Below, in pieces: positions 6,831 through 13,098 of a stretch of DNA of 64,000 bases; position 1 is the stretch's first letter, and each line of letters opens with the position of its first letter. This DNA is from Microscilla marina ATCC 23134. Lineage in GTDB: Bacteria > Bacteroidota > Bacteroidia > Cytophagales > Microscillaceae. A model generated the notes under the pieces. That model ran no database searches, had not been told where the DNA came from, and saw nothing but the letters and a program-made list of their open reading frames with translations. The stretch covers positions 248,001 through 312,000 of the forward strand of contig NZ_AAWS01000003.1 in assembly GCF_000169175.1 (NCBI RefSeq). Reading direction: 5' to 3'. Both the position numbers and the translations under genes were made by a program.

Positions 6831-7149
6831 GCAGCGAGTCTTTTTATAGTCAATGAGTTAAGCCCCTAAGGGCGCTCATGTTGAAATCTTAACTTTAAGG
6901 CAGCTTCTAAATTACGAAAAAAAAGAGGGATTTGAAAGGCTTCAATAGGGTATGTTGATAAAGATTACATCTTGCGTTGTGAGTACTCTCCTCTTTGCTT
7001 TTTCTTTCGTCAGAGGCATTTTTTTTGGCTAAAGTGGATAGCTGATTACCCACATTAGGCAGGTATAGTAAAAGAAGGATATGTTGATAAAACCCTGGTA
7101 TTGAGGCTGTAGCTGGATGAAGTATAAAGTTTTGTCATATACAATGCAA
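6831..7149. other. Gap of 319 bases without a clear gene
   Basis: A small hairpin with GCCC/GGGC arms lies at about 6865-6876 in the dnaE leader. The 12-mer TATGTTGATAAA occurs twice (about 6951 and 7080). A 27-codon minus-strand frame at 7055-7138 starts 11 bases after the oxygenase stop; it is Ser/Thr/Tyr-rich, has no acidic residues and is not accepted as a gene. No terminator for the upstream oxygenase gene is obvious. Confidence 0.4.
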
Positions 7150-8388
7150 TCAGGTTGGCTTCATTTCTATAGCCTGGTGATTTAACATTAAAGTGAAAAA
7201 TTCAAGTAAAAATGTTTGATAGTCAGGGTGTTGAGCCATTACTTGCCCTATTTCTATTACCTCACCCGCGTTCAACTGTTCTAGCAAAGGCAACAACAGA
7301 GAAGCATGGGAAAAATTACTTTTGTTTCGTCGGTAATATAGTCTTACCTGATCATTTTTTAGCGGTTGATGGTATATACAGAAAGGAGCGACAATTTGTA
7401 CACTTTGTTTGGTCAATTCAGGAAAAGTTTTTTGATCAGACCAGCGCGGAGGGCGAAACCCACAATTGCTTTTGAGCGACAATTGATAATCTTCCATAGC
7501 CGCCTTTACCCAGCCACCAAATTTTTGTTCATGTACCTCAGTGCCAATCAAACCACTGGCTAAAATGTCGTCCACCTCAGCTTCATACCCTGCCAAAATC
7601 TCTGGGTCAAACGATGCTGTATTCATTTCAGCCAAAGCATTGCTGAGCCAGTCTTTGACCGAAATACCCTTGATCACCACCGTCAACGCCATTGAAAACT
7701 CCTCAGTGTTACCAATGTGAAAAGGACCTTCGGGCAAGTAAAACGTATCGTGCGCTTCTATTTGGCAGGTAGTACCATAGGGCAATATTTTCTCTGGCTC
7801 GCAATAATGCAACCTCGACCCGGTCTTCTCTACAAACACCTCTTCATCCCACAGTGTCATCAGTTTCTTACCTGGTCCCTGATGAAAGTGAATCACACTA
7901 TTGGCTTCACCGTCGTAGTGTACCCCAAACGGAGTATACCCATAATTGCCCACAAATATAGTAGCGTTCAGGTCTAACCAAGGAATCCCAAGCTCTTCTA
8001 CAATCCCCTGATAAAGAGGAGCAAGTCGTTGGGCAAGCGTATCGTGGTATTGGGTAGCACGATTGAGAATGATGCCAAATTTTTGCTTGCCAAATATACG
8101 TTGGGTAAAGTCTTGCAGGCCTTCGTGAGTTTGTAAAGGAGCGCGGTACATCTCGCTCAACTCTTTAATCACCTGTTTACCATCAGTATATACCCTGAGT
8201 CCGGGAGTACCAAACGAAAGCTTTTCTGGAACTTCTTGGATAATATTTAAAATGTCTTGTTCAGTAAAAAACTGAGCAGGCACACTGTTTTTGATCAAAC
8301 AAGCCTCTGTAAGGTAGTTAGACTCTTCTAAAAGCACGTTCCACCAGGCTTGGCTAAAAACGGTATGAGGAGGAGTAATAGATGCCAT
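7150..8388 (-). CDS. JmjC/cupin-like Fe(II)/2-oxoglutarate oxygenase in a peptide-maturation operon
   Basis: This 412-residue protein has a double-stranded beta-helix iron site. HYD (157-159) sits inside YTPFGVHYDGEANS, followed by GPGKKLMTLWDEE (171-183) and then LPEGPFHIGNT (218-227) with H224 as the third ligand. This pattern is that of the JmjC/cupin_4/cupin_8 hydroxylases (established family knowledge). Residues 1-110 are a helical N-terminal region and residues about 240-412 resemble the winged-helix-type tails of ribosomal oxygenases, but I cannot assign them firmly. It is soluble, with no signal peptide. The gene is the last of the operon: 34 bases separate it from the ATP-grasp gene, which follows a small peptide gene. 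I infer that it hydroxylates or otherwise oxidises that peptide. A role on a ribosomal protein is the main alternative. Confidence 0.75.
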   Translation of the reverse strand: MASITPPHTVFSQAWWNVLLEESNYLTEACLIKNSVPAQFFTEQDILNIIQEVPEKLSFGTPGLRVYTDGKQVIKELSEMYRAPLQTHEGLQDFTQRIFGKQKFGIILNRATQYHDTLAQRLAPLYQGIVEELGIPWLDLNATIFVGNYGYTPFGVHYDGEANSVIHFHQGPGKKLMTLWDEEVFVEKTGSRLHYCEPEKILPYGTTCQIEAHDTFYLPEGPFHIGNTEEFSMALTVVIKGISVKDWLSNALAEMNTASFDPEILAGYEAEVDDILASGLIGTEVHEQKFGGWVKAAMEDYQLSLKSNCGFRPPRWSDQKTFPELTKQSVQIVAPFCIYHQPLKNDQVRLYYRRNKSNFSHASLLLPLLEQLNAGEVIEIGQVMAQHPDYQTFLLEFFTLMLNHQAIEMKPT

Positions 8389-8422
8389 TGATTACTATAT
8401 ATAGTGATTATAAAACATTGAG

Positions 8423-9427
8423 TTAATAAAGGTTGAGTGGACTATTACGTCTACGAGCCCGGTTGAGCAAGACATTGGCAATTGCTTCGGATATTTTTTT
8501 ATTAAAAGCCTGATCCAGCCAACTAAACTCACCCACGGGGTTAACTTCTAAAAATACAAACTTGCCTTCCGGAGTTTTAATTAAATCTACCGCCCCATAG
8601 TTGAGTCCAAAATAGTCCATAAGGTGAAGCAGCTTCAGCTGAATACTGGCGGGTAAGTCACAAGGTTCTATGTCATCTATCAGGCTCCCATCTTTACGCC
8701 AGTCAGCTTGCCCTTCGGTAGATTGTTGAGAGGGTATTTTACCACAAAAAATCTGTTCTCCTACAATGGCCACCCTAAACTCACATTCTTTTTCTACATA
8801 TTCCTGAAAAATCATAGGCGAAAATTCCAACCCCGTCATATCTTCCAACTCTTCGGGCTGCCACTTGTGGCTATATACCTTATACTCGTCTTCAGTACCA
8901 TCATAAATGCTAAAAGCGTATTGCATCTTTGAGATCACCGCCGAATAGTTGTGGGCAAAAGCTTTTACTTCTTGCGCCGAGTTGGTAATAAGGGTAGCAG
9001 GAATGCGCAAACCCAGGCGGTTGGCTACCTTAAGTTGCAATTGTTTGTTTTCGGCACGTCGGATGTCCGCTACAGCGTCTAACACAAACTTGCCAATGCC
9101 CCAACTGGCAAGGGTACCCCAGAAAGTAGTTTTTGATTCTTCTATGGCAGGTATTTTATACTCATCTGCCATTTCTTCGGGCAGCTCTTGCCCAATGCGG
9201 ATGCGTCTATACCATACTGCGTCAAACTTTGCCAGGTCGTGTACCACATCTTCACTGATGATTTTTACCTGTTCGGTATTGTTAATATAATGGCTGGCAA
9301 GCTGAATTTGGGTGGGGTAATAGTTGGTATTAAACCTGTATACATTGGCTCCTTTATTTTGCAATGCTTCAGTTACATTGTTGATACCTTCGTCGTCATC
9401 ACTATATGTGACAATTAACACTTCCAT
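8423..9427 (-). CDS. ATP-grasp peptide ligase, MvdC/MvdD (graspetide synthetase)-like
   Basis: This 334-residue enzyme has the layout of RiPP ATP-grasp ligases that close ester or amide rings. The N-terminal pre-ATP-grasp domain contains FDAVWYRR (68-75), the typical WxRR signature. The grasp fold follows: NKQLQLKVANRLGLRIP (127-143), an ISKMQY lysine strand (165-170), FQEYVEKECEFRV (207-219), and the metal site DLIK...FLEVNP (281-297) ending in VGEFSWLD, which matches the family's P.GEW.WL. Catalytic D281, E294 and N296 are all present, so it should be active. By family knowledge such enzymes phosphorylate a side-chain carboxylate and join it to Ser, Thr or Lys. Its likely substrate is the 43-residue peptide encoded 106 bases upstream. 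RimK-like and glutathione-synthetase-like functions are less likely given the WYRR domain. Confidence 0.9.
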   Translation of the reverse strand: MEVLIVTYSDDDEGINNVTEALQNKGANVYRFNTNYYPTQIQLASHYINNTEQVKIISEDVVHDLAKFDAVWYRRIRIGQELPEEMADEYKIPAIEESKTTFWGTLASWGIGKFVLDAVADIRRAENKQLQLKVANRLGLRIPATLITNSAQEVKAFAHNYSAVISKMQYAFSIYDGTEDEYKVYSHKWQPEELEDMTGLEFSPMIFQEYVEKECEFRVAIVGEQIFCGKIPSQQSTEGQADWRKDGSLIDDIEPCDLPASIQLKLLHLMDYFGLNYGAVDLIKTPEGKFVFLEVNPVGEFSWLDQAFNKKISEAIANVLLNRARRRNSPLNLY

Positions 9428-9473
9428 AAAGTTATAAGTAGCTAAATTTTTTTGGTATATTGCTTACCAAACT

Positions 9474-9506
9474 ACATAAAAAAAGGGACTATTGCTAGTC
9501 CCTTTT
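9474..9506 (-). terminator. Terminator or attenuator between the peptide gene and the ATP-grasp gene
   Basis: AAAAGGGACTA (9481-9491) pairs perfectly with TAGTCCCTTTT (9496-9506) around TTGC, an 11-base stem. On the minus strand the stem is followed by seven T residues. It lies 27 bases past the peptide stop and 47 bases before the ATP-grasp start. Such a hairpin would let partial read-through make much peptide and little enzyme, a common RiPP arrangement. Confidence 0.85.
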
Positions 9507-9533
9507 GCTTGATTCACTGGCGGGTAAATGTGA

Positions 9534-9665
9534 TTATTTTCTTTTAACCACTTTTCTTTTTTCTAGTTGTTTGGCGAAGAAAGGCTTGGTAGTACTTTTA
9601 GCAGTTTTTATTTCTTTGCTACCAAATGTGTTTGGACTGTCAAAATCACCATTAATATGTCCCAT
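9534..9665 (-). CDS. Candidate graspetide precursor peptide (43 residues)
   Basis: This short frame starts with ATG at 9665 and stops with TAA at 9534-9536. The peptide begins MGHINGDFDSPN, continues with a K/S/T-rich middle (residues 16-27) and carries KPFFAKQLEK at residues 27-36, ending in KRKVVKRK. PFFAxxLE closely matches the PFFARFLE leader helix that microviridin ligases recognise (established for that family). Unusually, only eight basic residues follow the motif, so the normal C-terminal TxKxPSD core is missing. Reading the other frames past the stop shows no such core. The core could instead be N-terminal (D7, D9, S10, T13, E18 and the S/T/K run), or this is a degraded or regulatory leader. 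Position first in an operon with an ATP-grasp ligase and an oxygenase, plus the hairpin after it, supports a precursor role. Confidence 0.7.
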   Translation of the reverse strand: MGHINGDFDSPNTFGSKEIKTAKSTTKPFFAKQLEKRKVVKRK

Positions 9666-10006
9666 GTTTTTAATTTTTTAAATTTAACCTTTGTTTTAAA
9701 TAATAGTTGTTTGTTGTATTATGGTTGCAAAGTAAGGGGGGAATGGGTAGATAAAAAAATGCTTTTTTGAAAAAATATTACAAACGACGAAACTTTTTTC
9801 ATTGATTGTCGTAGTGCACTTTCCTGCGTTTTGAAATACTTAATAATAAGTATACAATAATTGTAAAGAAATATACTGAGGGCTTACTGTAGATAAATAG
9901 TTGGGGTTTACAATGTAACTCAATGGTTTATTTTGGGAAATACCTTTTTTTTCGTTTTAGTCAAAGGTTTATACATAAATGCGAAAAGTAAAGTTTTAAT
10001 AAAATT
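9666..10006. other. Divergent regulatory gap between the peptide operon and the 7TM gene
   Basis: These 341 bases are AT-rich and separate two divergent transcription units. On the minus strand TTACTTTGC (about 9727-9735) is one base short of the Bacteroidota TAnnTTTG -7 box and may serve the peptide operon. A 27-residue minus frame (9719-9802) overlaps this box and is not accepted. No terminator or repeat was found. Confidence 0.35.
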
Positions 10007-12244
10007 GTGGTGGTAACCTTGTTTAATTCAGCTCAAATATTTCATCAATTTGAAAAAAAATGCTTGATTTCACCTGCTTTTTTTTGTGTGATATTTCTTT
10101 GTATCTTTTCAAAAGTAAGAGTTATTGCTCAAAACCCGTTAGACTCACTGGTTGTACAGGTTACTGACGATATAAGTAAATTGACTAACCTGAATCCGCG
10201 AATGTACATCTTAGAAGATTCGTCAAATAGCCTAAGTTTTAAGCAAATCACTTCTTCTAAATATCATAACTACTTCATTCCTTATAATGAATTTCAAAAG
10301 AAGTCCCCAAGGTTGCAAAGAGAGAGAGTTTATTGGGCAAAATTGACGCTCTATAACCAGTCAAGCAGGAATCACTGGATTTTGTATGCCGCGAAGGGCG
10401 CAAATATTCAGCTATACTACCCTGATAATAATGGTCATTATTCTAAAAAACTAAATGGTCGTCTTGTACCACAATCGTTAAGAGATATTAGCAAGCATAT
10501 TGTGGAGTTTAAGTACAAGTTTCGCCTATTTTTACCTGTTCAAAAAAAAATTACAATTTATATTAGACTGAAAGGAGTAATGTATACACCTCGTTATACA
10601 TTAAAGCTTCGTTCACCTCAAGCATACTTGCATGAGGAATCTACATTAAACATTATTCAAGGTGTCTTTCAAGGCGCTTTATGGATTATACTTCTTTATA
10701 ATATAATACTATTTCTAGTTGTTAAAGACAAAACCTACCTTTACTACACTACTTACATATTTGCATACTCAGTATATTATTTAGGGTATTACGACTTCTT
10801 TTCTGAGTATCCAGTTTTGCAAACATTCATTGGAGTAGCCAGTAGTCAATCAACAATGATTTTCTACTTTTTATTCATGAAGCTTTTTGTTGATGCTAAA
10901 AGACTAATCCCAAGGTGGAATAAAGTTATTCACTATTGGATGATAATCAAAGTGTCGATTGACTGCTGTTTGCTGCTTTATATATCTCTAACTTTAAATC
11001 TGGCTGATGCTGAAATATATTTATTAATTATAATATTAATTGATACAAGCTTATTTATATTAACACTCATTTTCTTATTGAGAACGAGAAATGTTTTAGC
11101 CCGCTATTTCGTTACAGGTTCTTTTTTCTTAATATTAGGCTGGGCGTTAAGTTCAATGGGGTTTTTGATTCATGTGAAGGTAGGGTTCAACATTAATTAC
11201 TTCTCCCAAGCAGGTTTATTTCTCGAACTAGTGCTTTTCTCGGTAGGTTTGGGGTACCGCGAACGAAAAAACGAGCAAGACAAACGATTGGCACAAGAAG
11301 AAAATGCCCGAATACTGAGAGAGCAAAATGTAACCCTGGAGCGCAAGGTAAAAGAACGTACCAAAGAGATTACCGAAAAGAACGAAGAGCTCCAGCTCCA
11401 GAAAGAAGAAATATTGACCCAACGAGATTCGTTGCAGGAACGAGGCGAAGAACTTCAGTTTGCTTACAATCAAATCACAGACAGTGTACGCTACGCCCAA
11501 ACCATCCAAAATGCCATTTTACCTTTTGAACCTAAAATCAAGCAGATTTTTGAAGAGTACTTTATCATCTACCAACCCAAAGACATTGTGTCAGGCGATT
11601 TTTACTGGTTTAACACCATCAAAGGTGAAAACTTTACCAAAACTGTAGTAGCAGTGATAGACTGTACCGGGCATGGTGTACCGGGTGCTTTTATGAGCAT
11701 GATAGGCAATACATTGCTCAACGAAACGATCAACGAAAAGCATATCTTTGACCCGGCAAAGGTGATGACCCTTTTACACCAAAAAATCCGCAGTGACTTG
11801 CGACAGGCAGAAACCAACAACAGTGATGGAATGGACATGTCGCTCTGTGTGATTGAGCCGCTGGCTGCTCAAAAGTTTAAGGTGATTTTTTCGGGTGCCA
11901 AACGCCCCTTGTATTATGTACAGGAAGGGGAATTTAACCAGCTCAAGGCTGACCGTTTTTCTATTGGTGGCGAAGTATACGAAGATGAACGTACCAGGGT
12001 TTTTACCAACCAAGAGCTTATGTTGGCTAAAGGCGATGCTTTGTATATGATGACCGATGGTTTTGGCGATACTCCCGATGCCGAGCGTCGCCGTTTTGGT
12101 TCTCGTAACATCAAAAAAATGATCAGCCATTATGCACATTTATCTATGGAAGAGCAACAAATTGCTTTTGAAGCTACTCTAGCCAAACATCAAGGAAGTC
12201 AGGACGCCCGCGATGATGTCACAATGTTGGGCTTGAGGCTTTAA
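10007..12244 (+). CDS. 7TM-DISM membrane receptor with cytoplasmic SpoIIE (PP2C) phosphatase
   Basis: This protein of about 745 residues has a hydrophobic export segment (about 22-40), an extracytoplasmic 7TMR-DISMED2-like beta domain (about 45-205), seven hydrophobic segments (about 215-415), a long charged coiled coil (about 418-490) and a SpoIIE-type Ser/Thr phosphatase domain (about 510-745). Phosphatase motifs are GDFYWF, DCTGHGVPGAFMS, DGMDMS, MTDGFGD and the final DDVTMLGL. By family knowledge it senses a ligand outside and dephosphorylates a STAS-type or similar protein inside. The metallophosphoesterase gene starts 18 bases downstream and is likely co-transcribed. The assigned start is GTG; no in-frame ATG exists before residue 66, so a GTG or TTG start is needed and the exact one is uncertain. 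A second SpoIIE phosphatase with a near-identical core is at 36191-37660. Confidence 0.9.
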   Translation: MVVTLFNSAQIFHQFEKKCLISPAFFCVIFLCIFSKVRVIAQNPLDSLVVQVTDDISKLTNLNPRMYILEDSSNSLSFKQITSSKYHNYFIPYNEFQKKSPRLQRERVYWAKLTLYNQSSRNHWILYAAKGANIQLYYPDNNGHYSKKLNGRLVPQSLRDISKHIVEFKYKFRLFLPVQKKITIYIRLKGVMYTPRYTLKLRSPQAYLHEESTLNIIQGVFQGALWIILLYNIILFLVVKDKTYLYYTTYIFAYSVYYLGYYDFFSEYPVLQTFIGVASSQSTMIFYFLFMKLFVDAKRLIPRWNKVIHYWMIIKVSIDCCLLLYISLTLNLADAEIYLLIIILIDTSLFILTLIFLLRTRNVLARYFVTGSFFLILGWALSSMGFLIHVKVGFNINYFSQAGLFLELVLFSVGLGYRERKNEQDKRLAQEENARILREQNVTLERKVKERTKEITEKNEELQLQKEEILTQRDSLQERGEELQFAYNQITDSVRYAQTIQNAILPFEPKIKQIFEEYFIIYQPKDIVSGDFYWFNTIKGENFTKTVVAVIDCTGHGVPGAFMSMIGNTLLNETINEKHIFDPAKVMTLLHQKIRSDLRQAETNNSDGMDMSLCVIEPLAAQKFKVIFSGAKRPLYYVQEGEFNQLKADRFSIGGEVYEDERTRVFTNQELMLAKGDALYMMTDGFGDTPDAERRRFGSRNIKKMISHYAHLSMEEQQIAFEATLAKHQGSQDARDDVTMLGLRL

Positions 12245-12262: not shown

Positions 12263-12889
12263 ATGAAAATAGTTTGTATATCAGACACCCACGGAAAACA
12301 TAGCCAAATAGCGGTGCCTGAAGGTGATTTGTTGATTCACGCCGGAGACCTAAGCGCTCGGGGCAGACCCAAAGAAATACGCCGTTTTAACAACTGGCTG
12401 GCTACTTTGCCTCACCGTCATAAGGTAGTTATTGCTGGGAATCACGATTTTTTGTTTGAAGATGAACCCCATCAGGCAGAAGCACTTTTAACCAATGCCA
12501 TTTATCTCAACGACAGTGGAGTTACTATAGAAGGTGTCAATATATGGGGGTCTCCCATTACTCCTTGGTTTTTCGACTGGGCGTTTAATCGTGCCAGAGG
12601 AGCAGACATTCGTAAACACTGGGATTTGATTCCTGAAAATATTGATATTTTGGTTACCCATGGACCACCCAAAGGAGTGTTAGACCAAACGGCAAAAGGG
12701 GAGGAGGTTGGTTGTGAAGAATTAACCGAAGTAATCCAAGATATACGTCCAAGATACCACATTTTTGGTCACATTCATGAAGCACGTGGCAGGGTAGAAG
12801 TTAACGGCACCCACTATATCAATGCCAGCATGTTGAACCTACAATATGAAGCAGTACACCAGGCCGTTGTCATAGATTATATGAGATAA
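12263..12889 (+). CDS. Calcineurin-like metallophosphoesterase
   Basis: This 208-residue cytosolic protein has the complete metallophosphoesterase metal motifs: ISDTHGKH (6-13), HAGDLS (26-31), AGNHDF (58-63), VTHGPP (about 131-136) and FGHIHEARG (about 169-177). Length and motif spacing match the small MPPED-like branch of the calcineurin superfamily, which hydrolyses phosphodiesters or phosphomonoesters at a two-metal site. The substrate cannot be told from sequence. It follows the 7TM-SpoIIE gene by 18 bases, so the two may form a signalling unit, perhaps with the esterase acting on a nucleotide messenger; that link is inference. Confidence 0.9.
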   Translation: MKIVCISDTHGKHSQIAVPEGDLLIHAGDLSARGRPKEIRRFNNWLATLPHRHKVVIAGNHDFLFEDEPHQAEALLTNAIYLNDSGVTIEGVNIWGSPITPWFFDWAFNRARGADIRKHWDLIPENIDILVTHGPPKGVLDQTAKGEEVGCEELTEVIQDIRPRYHIFGHIHEARGRVEVNGTHYINASMLNLQYEAVHQAVVIDYMR

Positions 12890-12955
12890 ACCTGGCGCTG
12901 TTGGTAGTCCGATTGAGAACAAATTAGCTTCGCATAGCTTTGACTTTATTCTGTG

Positions 12956-12995
12956 GTTCTCTTTACTGTCTTTCGTTATTTTTAGCTTTTGGCAG
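12956..12995. repeat. Short dispersed repeat, copy B
   Basis: This is the partner of 293-336. It lies in the 209-base gap between the convergent phosphoesterase and amidase genes. Matching blocks are CTCTTT, TTCGTTA and TTTGGCAG with small gaps between them. No clear rho-independent terminator was seen for either flanking gene. Confidence 0.4.
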
Positions 12996-13098
12996 TCCTG
13001 AGTATATGCACTCAATCTCGACACTTATTTTGACCAGGCTCCTTAAGTTTTTAGGCTAACTCTTCTTGGTGAAGGACACTTGCCTACTGCAAGGTGAT

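Follow-up and report, generated by a model that had tools for sequence, protein, structure and literature searches.

A 64,000-nucleotide stretch of the Microscilla marina ATCC 23134 genome (contig NZ_AAWS01000003.1; hereafter the window, G000:C3:248001-312000) encodes a three-gene operon on its minus strand. A 43-residue peptide gene and a terminator-like hairpin are followed by genes for an ATP-grasp ligase and a JmjC oxygenase, with gaps of 106 and 34 bases between the genes (Table 1). The operon is confirmed as real, beyond chance. On balance, its sequences suggest that it makes a hydroxylated graspetide-type ribosomally synthesized and post-translationally modified peptide (RiPP) from a precursor whose leader is C-terminal, a reading that we hold with modest confidence. 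In the labels used here, C3, C15, C27, C44, C58 and the like are contigs, and the genome prefix gives the owner. G000 is the genome of the window (9.77 Mb), and G047 is the one other Microscilla genome in our sample, a 760-contig assembly from which absence is not proof of loss.

A first-pass annotation of this DNA had described the same gene order, gaps and hairpin; all of the open reading frames (ORFs) are in place and the hairpin was found. The hairpin, 3′ of the peptide gene, has 11 pairs and a T run, with a minimum free energy of −18.6 kcal/mol (z −4.5; equalled by none of 200 shuffles); the terminator scan found 2 sites, where shuffled sequence gives 2.3 on expectation. Synteny of the trio is kept in G047, where the peptide, ligase and oxygenase share 93.0%, 98.5% and 92.7% amino acid (aa) identity with their window counterparts. 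Between these two genomes, the ratio of nonsynonymous to synonymous divergence (dN/dS) of the ligase is ∼0.016 (0.0063/0.397). The peptide has a dN of 0.045 and a dS of 0.20, resting on just 9 differences, and we regard its relatives on C44 and C15 (see below) as stronger evidence of a real peptide gene than dN/dS. The nearest genes identified encode a receptor, a metallophosphoesterase, a serpin and a DUF4291 protein; as the first-pass annotation had it, there is no transporter or protease among them.

The ligase matches the MvdD pre-ATP-grasp domain PF21068 at 135.6 bits, against a cut-off of 27. It scores below the equivalog cut-offs for both MvdD (TIGR04184, 381.1 versus 475) and MvdC (TIGR04185, 263.2 versus 425), and is thus a relative of MvdC and MvdD rather than a named equivalog. 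Its best matches among solved structures are MdnC (5ig9, 1.5e-76) and CdnC (7mgv, 2.2e-64), and the WYRR sequence noted earlier is present. The window ligase residues P-E-E-L-E-D align with K-E-D-L-D-N of MdnC, which we take to be leader contacts. At an E-value of 1e-30 the genome encodes four such ligases, the window's own, one on C27 and a pair on C58; a fifth, weaker match lies on C23 (3.5e-14). The C58 locus (L009:5844-8777) is of the ordinary microviridin type, with a ligase pair and two precursors that carry a near-N-terminal PFFAKFLE or PFFAQFLE and MKYPSD-type cores. M. marina is named as a holder of a microviridin gene cluster in PMC5934393, in a sentence that does not describe the window locus. 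The MvdD-like C27 ligase (L008:6308-7300) is 56% identical to the window's and lies downstream of genes that by eye are kinase-like and FHA-like. No PFFA peptide of the window kind was seen beside it, and it has no match in G047.

The peptide, MGHINGDFDSPNTFGSKEIKTAKSTTKPFFAKQLEKRKVVKRK, carries the ligase-docking motif PFFAKQLE at residues 28–35 of 43. This C-terminal placement was overlooked in the first-pass annotation, as was the divergent receptor gene described below. The motif is near-identical to the PFFAKFLE and PFFAQFLE leaders of ordinary precursors in the same genome. Ordinary graspetide precursors begin with an N-terminal PFFAxxLE leader and continue into a donor/acceptor core, a layout from which the 43-mer departs. 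Only the tail KRKVVKRK follows its motif. The tail has no acidic residue, the stop codon is immediately 3′ of it, and the open frame is 47 codons in all, so there is no longer frame. We rejected the 43-mer as an ordinary microviridin precursor because motif and stop leave no core. At the other ligase loci with a motif-bearing precursor (G000:C58, G047:C26, G100 and G232), the motif precedes a KYPSD-type core. This motif scan was noisy, with many chance matches, and at ligase loci L002, L005 and L038–L044 it yielded nothing convincing as a precursor. What stands of the proposed graspetide-type operon is thus the ligase type, the PFFAxxLE motif, the oxygenase with intact ligands and conservation in Microscilla; the usual MvdC/MvdD precursor layout does not.

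The C-terminal placement of the motif recurs in other peptides. A profile search of both Microscilla genomes recovered it at G000:C44, MGLLISDVDTPKIIVNQQAQSVKNTKPLFAQLLEKKKVAKHK, and in a third peptide type at G000:C15 and G047:C137, MDTFNKYSYSDKRP(R/K)ITRGFHRPFFMMDIEKKKVIKRK; two further G047 matches (E 0.86 and 0.93) were set aside. A hairpin also lies 3′ of the C44 peptide gene (−16.9 kcal/mol, z −3.5, 0 of 200 shuffles as good; none listed there by the terminator scanner), and the C15 peptide gene has a weaker one (−9.3 kcal/mol, z −2.6), which 3 of 200 shuffles equalled. Ten positions are invariant in the five aligned peptides (M1, D7, P28, F30, E35, K36, K38, V39, K41 and K43), with the invariance of D7 an alignment choice for the C15 type. 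The window peptide, its G047 counterpart and the C44 peptide have a DxD[ST]P motif in common. Between G000 and G047 the window peptide differs at three residues (H3T, N5I and F8L) and is identical over residues 9–43; codons 1–11 hold seven of the nine nucleotide differences (7/33 versus 2/96 bases; Fisher p 0.001, with the cut chosen after seeing the data). The C15-type peptide is 38 aa long and adjoins a gene that by eye is response-regulator-like (L031:1498-1614, L026:1483-1599); no ligase, oxygenase or seven-transmembrane (7TM) receptor lies beside it at these two loci.

A leader behind the core is plausible because the fuscimiditide leader works after its core and the MdnA leader acts in trans. 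In PMC13003496, the fuscimiditide leader moved behind the core still directs its ligase at about half the rate (0.017 versus 0.029 per min), and the N-terminal leader is treated as the native order. PMC5934393 describes the MdnA leader as binding the β9-β10 loop, acting allosterically and working in trans, with MdnA 9–22 activating both MdnC and AMdnC. Given the motif and this published behavior of MdnC, we conjecture that the ligase docks on a helix formed by PFFAKQLE, close to the C-terminus of the 43-mer. It would then phosphorylate a carboxylate, with D7 or D9 the best candidates, and link this to the side chain of a Ser, Thr or Lys in the N-terminal segment. The oxygenase would hydroxylate the same peptide, most likely at one of the Lys or Arg residues in the basic tail or at a core Asp. 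The hairpin may keep the peptide in excess over the enzymes. The C44 and C15 peptides, which have no such ligase beside them, may be modified in trans.

Several points weigh against a C-terminal-leader graspetide. The ligase falls short of the TIGR04184 equivalog cut-off, the C15-type peptide lacks DxD[ST]P, and in the samples searched the oxygenase occurs with a ligase nowhere outside Microscilla. We know of no natural graspetide with a C-terminal leader, and the literature searched, with most subscription papers outside its reach, held no account of the window locus, of such a graspetide or of a graspetide signal. Moreover, the positions invariant across the three peptide types are mostly C-terminal, which also fits the tail as the substrate. 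The order would then be the usual leader and core with a tiny core, E-K-x-K-V-x-K-x-K, in which E35 forms an isopeptide with a tail Lys and, as in corallotide, hydroxylation falls on a Lys. E35, K36, K38, V39, K41 and K43 are indeed invariant in 5/5 sequences, in corallotide Lys is first linked in an isopeptide and afterwards hydroxylated (PMC13097080), and an oxygenase relative in genome G565 adjoins precursors with Lys-rich tails. However, E35 is the Glu of ordinary leaders too (PFFAKFLE, PFFARFLE), so that its conservation has another reason; no other acidic residue lies past the motif; and nothing in this reading explains why C3 and C44 share DxD[ST]P. We consider it unlikely that the tail is the core. 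More doubtful still is that the peptide, rather than being a substrate, serves as a free leader and turns the ligase on in trans for some other protein or peptide. The trans activation of MdnC and AMdnC by MdnA 9–22 (PMC5934393) and the lack of a core past the motif speak for it, but it would make the N-terminal 27 residues needless, although the window, G047 and C44 peptides have DxD[ST]P in common, and the operon has no other substrate gene. An ordinary graspetide locus that had decayed and lost its core would likewise show none past the motif, but such a relic is very improbable given the same layout in three peptide types, the 35 identical C-terminal residues between strains and the low dN/dS of the ligase.

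The oxygenase scores 16.6 bits against PF08007, below the gathering score of 22, and all 6 members of its family alignment match this profile at E up to 1. Its metal ligands, H157-Y-D159...H224, are present in both Microscilla proteins, in line with the intact HYD...H described earlier. H157, K175, W180 and H224 are invariant in the six-sequence alignment; the position of D159, the middle ligand, is D, E or G, and is so in the four distant Cytophagales relatives. A predicted structure (pLDDT 72.5, from a 6-row alignment) matches NO66 with Z 15.9 and a root-mean-square deviation (rmsd) of 7.0 (346 residues aligned over 7–412), an R. marinus YcfD-like protein with Z 14.4 and rmsd 6.0 (329 aligned), and MINA53 with Z 13.8. 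The model thus points to the JmjC/dimerisation/winged-helix architecture of ribosomal oxygenases (ROX) over nearly the full length, with a high rmsd and a model of modest quality. NO66, MINA53 and YcfD share the whole-length fold and the HxD...H ligands with the window oxygenase, but only ∼10–15% identity, and the latter sits in a peptide operon. A sequence search of solved structures with the oxygenase returned nothing but portal-protein matches, which we discarded as chance.

Relatives of the oxygenase are repeatedly, though not always, found with small peptides, with a leaning toward Lys- or Arg-containing ones. In G565 (L104:6322-13299), a ThiF-like gene, two tandem 49–50-residue GG-leader-like precursors with Lys-rich tails, the oxygenase relative, an ORF of 167 aa and an export ABC transporter of the peptidase type make up a RiPP cluster; no ATP-grasp ligase was seen in it. 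The oxygenase also matches 21 of 72,556 plasmid records, and we examined the contexts of seven of the 21. At four of these loci, two in Nostoc and two in Streptomyces, short peptides with (L/V)K(T/V/A/L)G(V/M)RP(D/G) repeats lie near the distant oxygenase relative (4/4 translated), possibly as a multi-core RiPP family. Also present at these loci (L050:6708-8227, L051:6746-8242, L052:4207-8302 and L053:4356-8284) are a GFA-family gene and a gene assigned to DUF3865 in the Streptomyces annotations. In Pantoea and Klebsiella plasmids (L054:5661-8736, L055:4661-7904), an arginase-family gene, the oxygenase relative and a second cupin stand in a row, followed by more genes and an MFS transporter. 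Around the four distant Cytophagales relatives there is no recognisable precursor-like gene. The G363 relative (L105:4419-9153) lies among four similar 174–175-aa genes that by eye resemble tail-collar proteins. Hydroxylation of a RiPP precursor by JmjC-type enzymes is described for biphenomycin, at an Orn residue (PMC12707348 and PMC12257519).

The first-pass annotation had proposed looking for the trio in other Cytophagales. The trio does recur, but within Microscilla only, and we did not find it elsewhere in the order- and phylum-level genome sets searched (380–395 genomes each, as samples of larger groups). The oxygenase is present in 6/390 Cytophagales genomes, four of them distant, and no ligase or PFFA peptide was seen in the 16–17 kb around those four. 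It is present in 2/390 phylum-level genomes, its own included. Ligase matches at E 1e-30 occur in 11 of 390 sampled genomes; an exact short-pattern contig scan for the ligase reached the G047 record only. The peptide search returned 3/380 genomes, the third (G112) a weak match inside a 655-aa frame, and the peptide profile 2/395 phylum genomes, of which the second (G105) is a weak match interrupted by a stop.

Comparison with known systems places the operon among graspetides with several departures. Like the microviridin and MvdC/MvdD systems (MdnC 5ig9, CdnC 7mgv and the C58 locus), it has a ligase of the ATP-grasp family and a PFFAxxLE motif on a small precursor. In contrast to them, its motif is C-terminal, there is no KYPSD-type core, and an oxygenase gene takes the place of a second ligase, acetyltransferase or transporter. 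We considered a hydroxylated graspetide as a new class and rejected this, since both the corallotide cluster (CorABCD, PMC13097080), which is graspetide-type and includes a precursor-hydroxylating oxygenase, and oxygenase hydroxylation in the graspetide-type SmaO/SmaX cluster (as PMC13097080 describes it) are already published. Corallotide differs in that CorC is of the PF13640 type, whereas the window oxygenase is a predicted ROX-like JmjC protein, and in its long repeat precursor and beta-lactamase-like gene; the window has a 43-mer and neither of these. The leader-to-follower fuscimiditide (PMC13003496) has a graspetide ligase directed by a leader behind the core, as proposed for the window, but it is engineered, with a long leader and a ligase of another subfamily, whereas the putative leader in the window is natural and short. 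The biphenomycin enzymes BipG and PbsQ (PMC12707348, PMC12257519) are JmjC/cupin-like hydroxylases acting on a RiPP precursor residue, as proposed for the window oxygenase; biphenomycin has no ATP-grasp ligase and its substrate is ornithine made by an arginase. If the window peptide is a natural precursor with its leader after the core, graspetide synthetases would be used in both orders, the second otherwise found as an engineered arrangement only. Pairing with a ribosomal-oxygenase-like enzyme would widen RiPP chemistry.

Divergent from the operon lies a gene for a 7TMR-DISMED2/7TM/SpoIIE protein. Its residues 132–745 have at least 163 matches in G000; among the matches listed, most are to the SpoIIE-side half. 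This number indicates a large expansion of SpoIIE-type signalling proteins. Among the listed matches, the best after the receptor itself is C44:27732-29570 (575 bits; next 345), and the C44 protein also leads when the sensory half alone is the query (418.6 bits, 49%; the runner-up has 169 bits, 32%). The C44 receptor gene adjoins the C44 peptide gene, with ∼50 bases between their 3′ ends. Peptide and receptor genes are therefore linked at C3 in both G000 and G047 and at C44 in G000, divergently at C3 and convergently at C44. When 19 kb of C44 were compared with the whole window, the receptor family was the sole gene match; together with the changed orientation, this argues that C3 and C44 are not an undisturbed duplicated segment. 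In G047 we found no C44 peptide, C44 receptor or C27 ligase, yet the C3 set is present.

Between G000 and G047, six neighboring genes are 92.7–98.8% identical and the receptor 71.9%. The receptor's divergence is confined to its sensing half, which is 51.8% identical (417 aligned) as against 97.6% for the rest (333 aligned), with a dS of 2.7 (saturated) versus 0.34. DNA identity per 60 bases drops from ∼0.9 to mostly 0.37–0.75 (one bin 0.85) in a block that ends sharply inside the receptor gene (Table 1); the other low-identity bins, 7061–7120 and 12881–13060, are intergenic. As a control, we used receptor loci chosen because they resemble the sensory half of the window gene, 24 from G000 and 21 from G047, which gave 19 reciprocal-best pairs (we dropped 5 of the 24 rows for not being reciprocal-best). 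The 18 other pairs have sensory-half identities of 0.856–0.982 (mean 0.936, standard deviation 0.031), and the window gene is the one outlier of 19 in this one strain pair. The window sensory half is about equally far from its orthologue and from the C44 protein (0.49 versus 0.46 in DISMED2, 0.53 versus 0.54 in 7TM), and the first 60 columns are nearer the orthologue (0.53) than C44 (0.18).

The C44 linkage, the outlying sensory half and the N-terminal peptide changes fit a peptide–receptor unit with an exchanged sensing half, and the product may act on the adjacent receptor. By analogy with agr and com pherotypes, we tentatively raise the possibility of a graspetide pheromone. The ligase and ROX-type hydroxylase would mature the N-terminal part of a precursor with a C-terminal leader, the adjacent 7TM-SpoIIE receptor would read the product, and the peptide–receptor pair would be kept at two paralogous loci with its sensory half exchanged between strains. 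The agr, comQXP and comCD loci are peptide pheromone systems with allelic receptors. They resemble the window in that a receptor gene adjoins a small peptide gene and diverges between strains in its sensing half rather than its output half, and differ from it in that the window has a Gram-negative host, a 7TM-SpoIIE receptor, putative ATP-grasp maturation, three changed peptide residues and data from two genomes only. If true, this link would give a graspetide a signalling role and provide a peptide ligand for a 7TMR-DISM receptor, a type with many copies in G000; the literature searched gave no earlier case of such a ligand.

Several points speak against a pheromone. No exporter, protease or signal peptide was identified for the peptide at the locus, the C15 peptide has no such receptor neighbor, and one 7TMR-DISM protein, SagS, is reported to sense glucose-6-phosphate. 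A fold search with the receptor half ranked human WLS highest (E 1.9e-5), followed by the periplasmic domain of RetS (E 3.5e-5, TMt 0.66), among unspecific matches that name no ligand. Among the papers listed on graspetides and signalling, a single Sulfitobacter genome study mentions a graspetide, and no graspetide signal is described in the literature searched. Probably, the divergent sensory half is unrelated to the peptide and reflects recombination within a very large paralogue family, with adjacency by descent from an old duplication. At least 163 related G000 matches could donate sequence, just three of the peptide's 43 residues differ, the link to the receptor rests on two genomes, and the outer domain is similar to RetS and to folds of the sugar-binding type. 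Against recombination of this kind, the one outlier among 19 pairs is the receptor beside the peptide, and the peptide and the closest receptor paralogue stand together at C44 in another orientation with no other shared flanking genes.

Table 1. Positions of the operon, its sequence elements and the adjacent receptor-like gene in the window
Feature	Position	Strand	Basis
Precursor-like peptide gene, 43 aa	9534..9665	-	ORF, relatives, strain comparison
Codons of residues 28–35 PFFAKQLE, ligase-docking (leader) motif at C-terminus	9561..9584	-	Sequence; compared with ordinary precursors
Codons of residues 7–11 DFDSP; DxD[ST]P motif common to C44 peptide; putative core	9633..9647	-	
Terminator-like hairpin between peptide and ligase genes	9481..9506	-	Terminator scan, folding
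ATP-grasp ligase, MvdC/MvdD type, 334 aa	8423..9427	-	Profiles, solved-structure matches
JmjC oxygenase, predicted ROX architecture, 412 aa	7150..8388	-	Profiles, alignment, model
Receptor-like gene, 7TMR-DISMED2 + 7TMR-DISM_7TM + SpoIIE phosphatase, divergent from operon; putative member of the system	10007..12244	+	
Low-DNA-identity block versus G047: part of intergenic region and receptor gene's sensory half	9760..11205	.	

Elsewhere in the window, a serpin gene (460–1695; PF00079, 391.6 bits) is 60% identical in G047 over the aligned part, and its neighbors are 96–99% identical.

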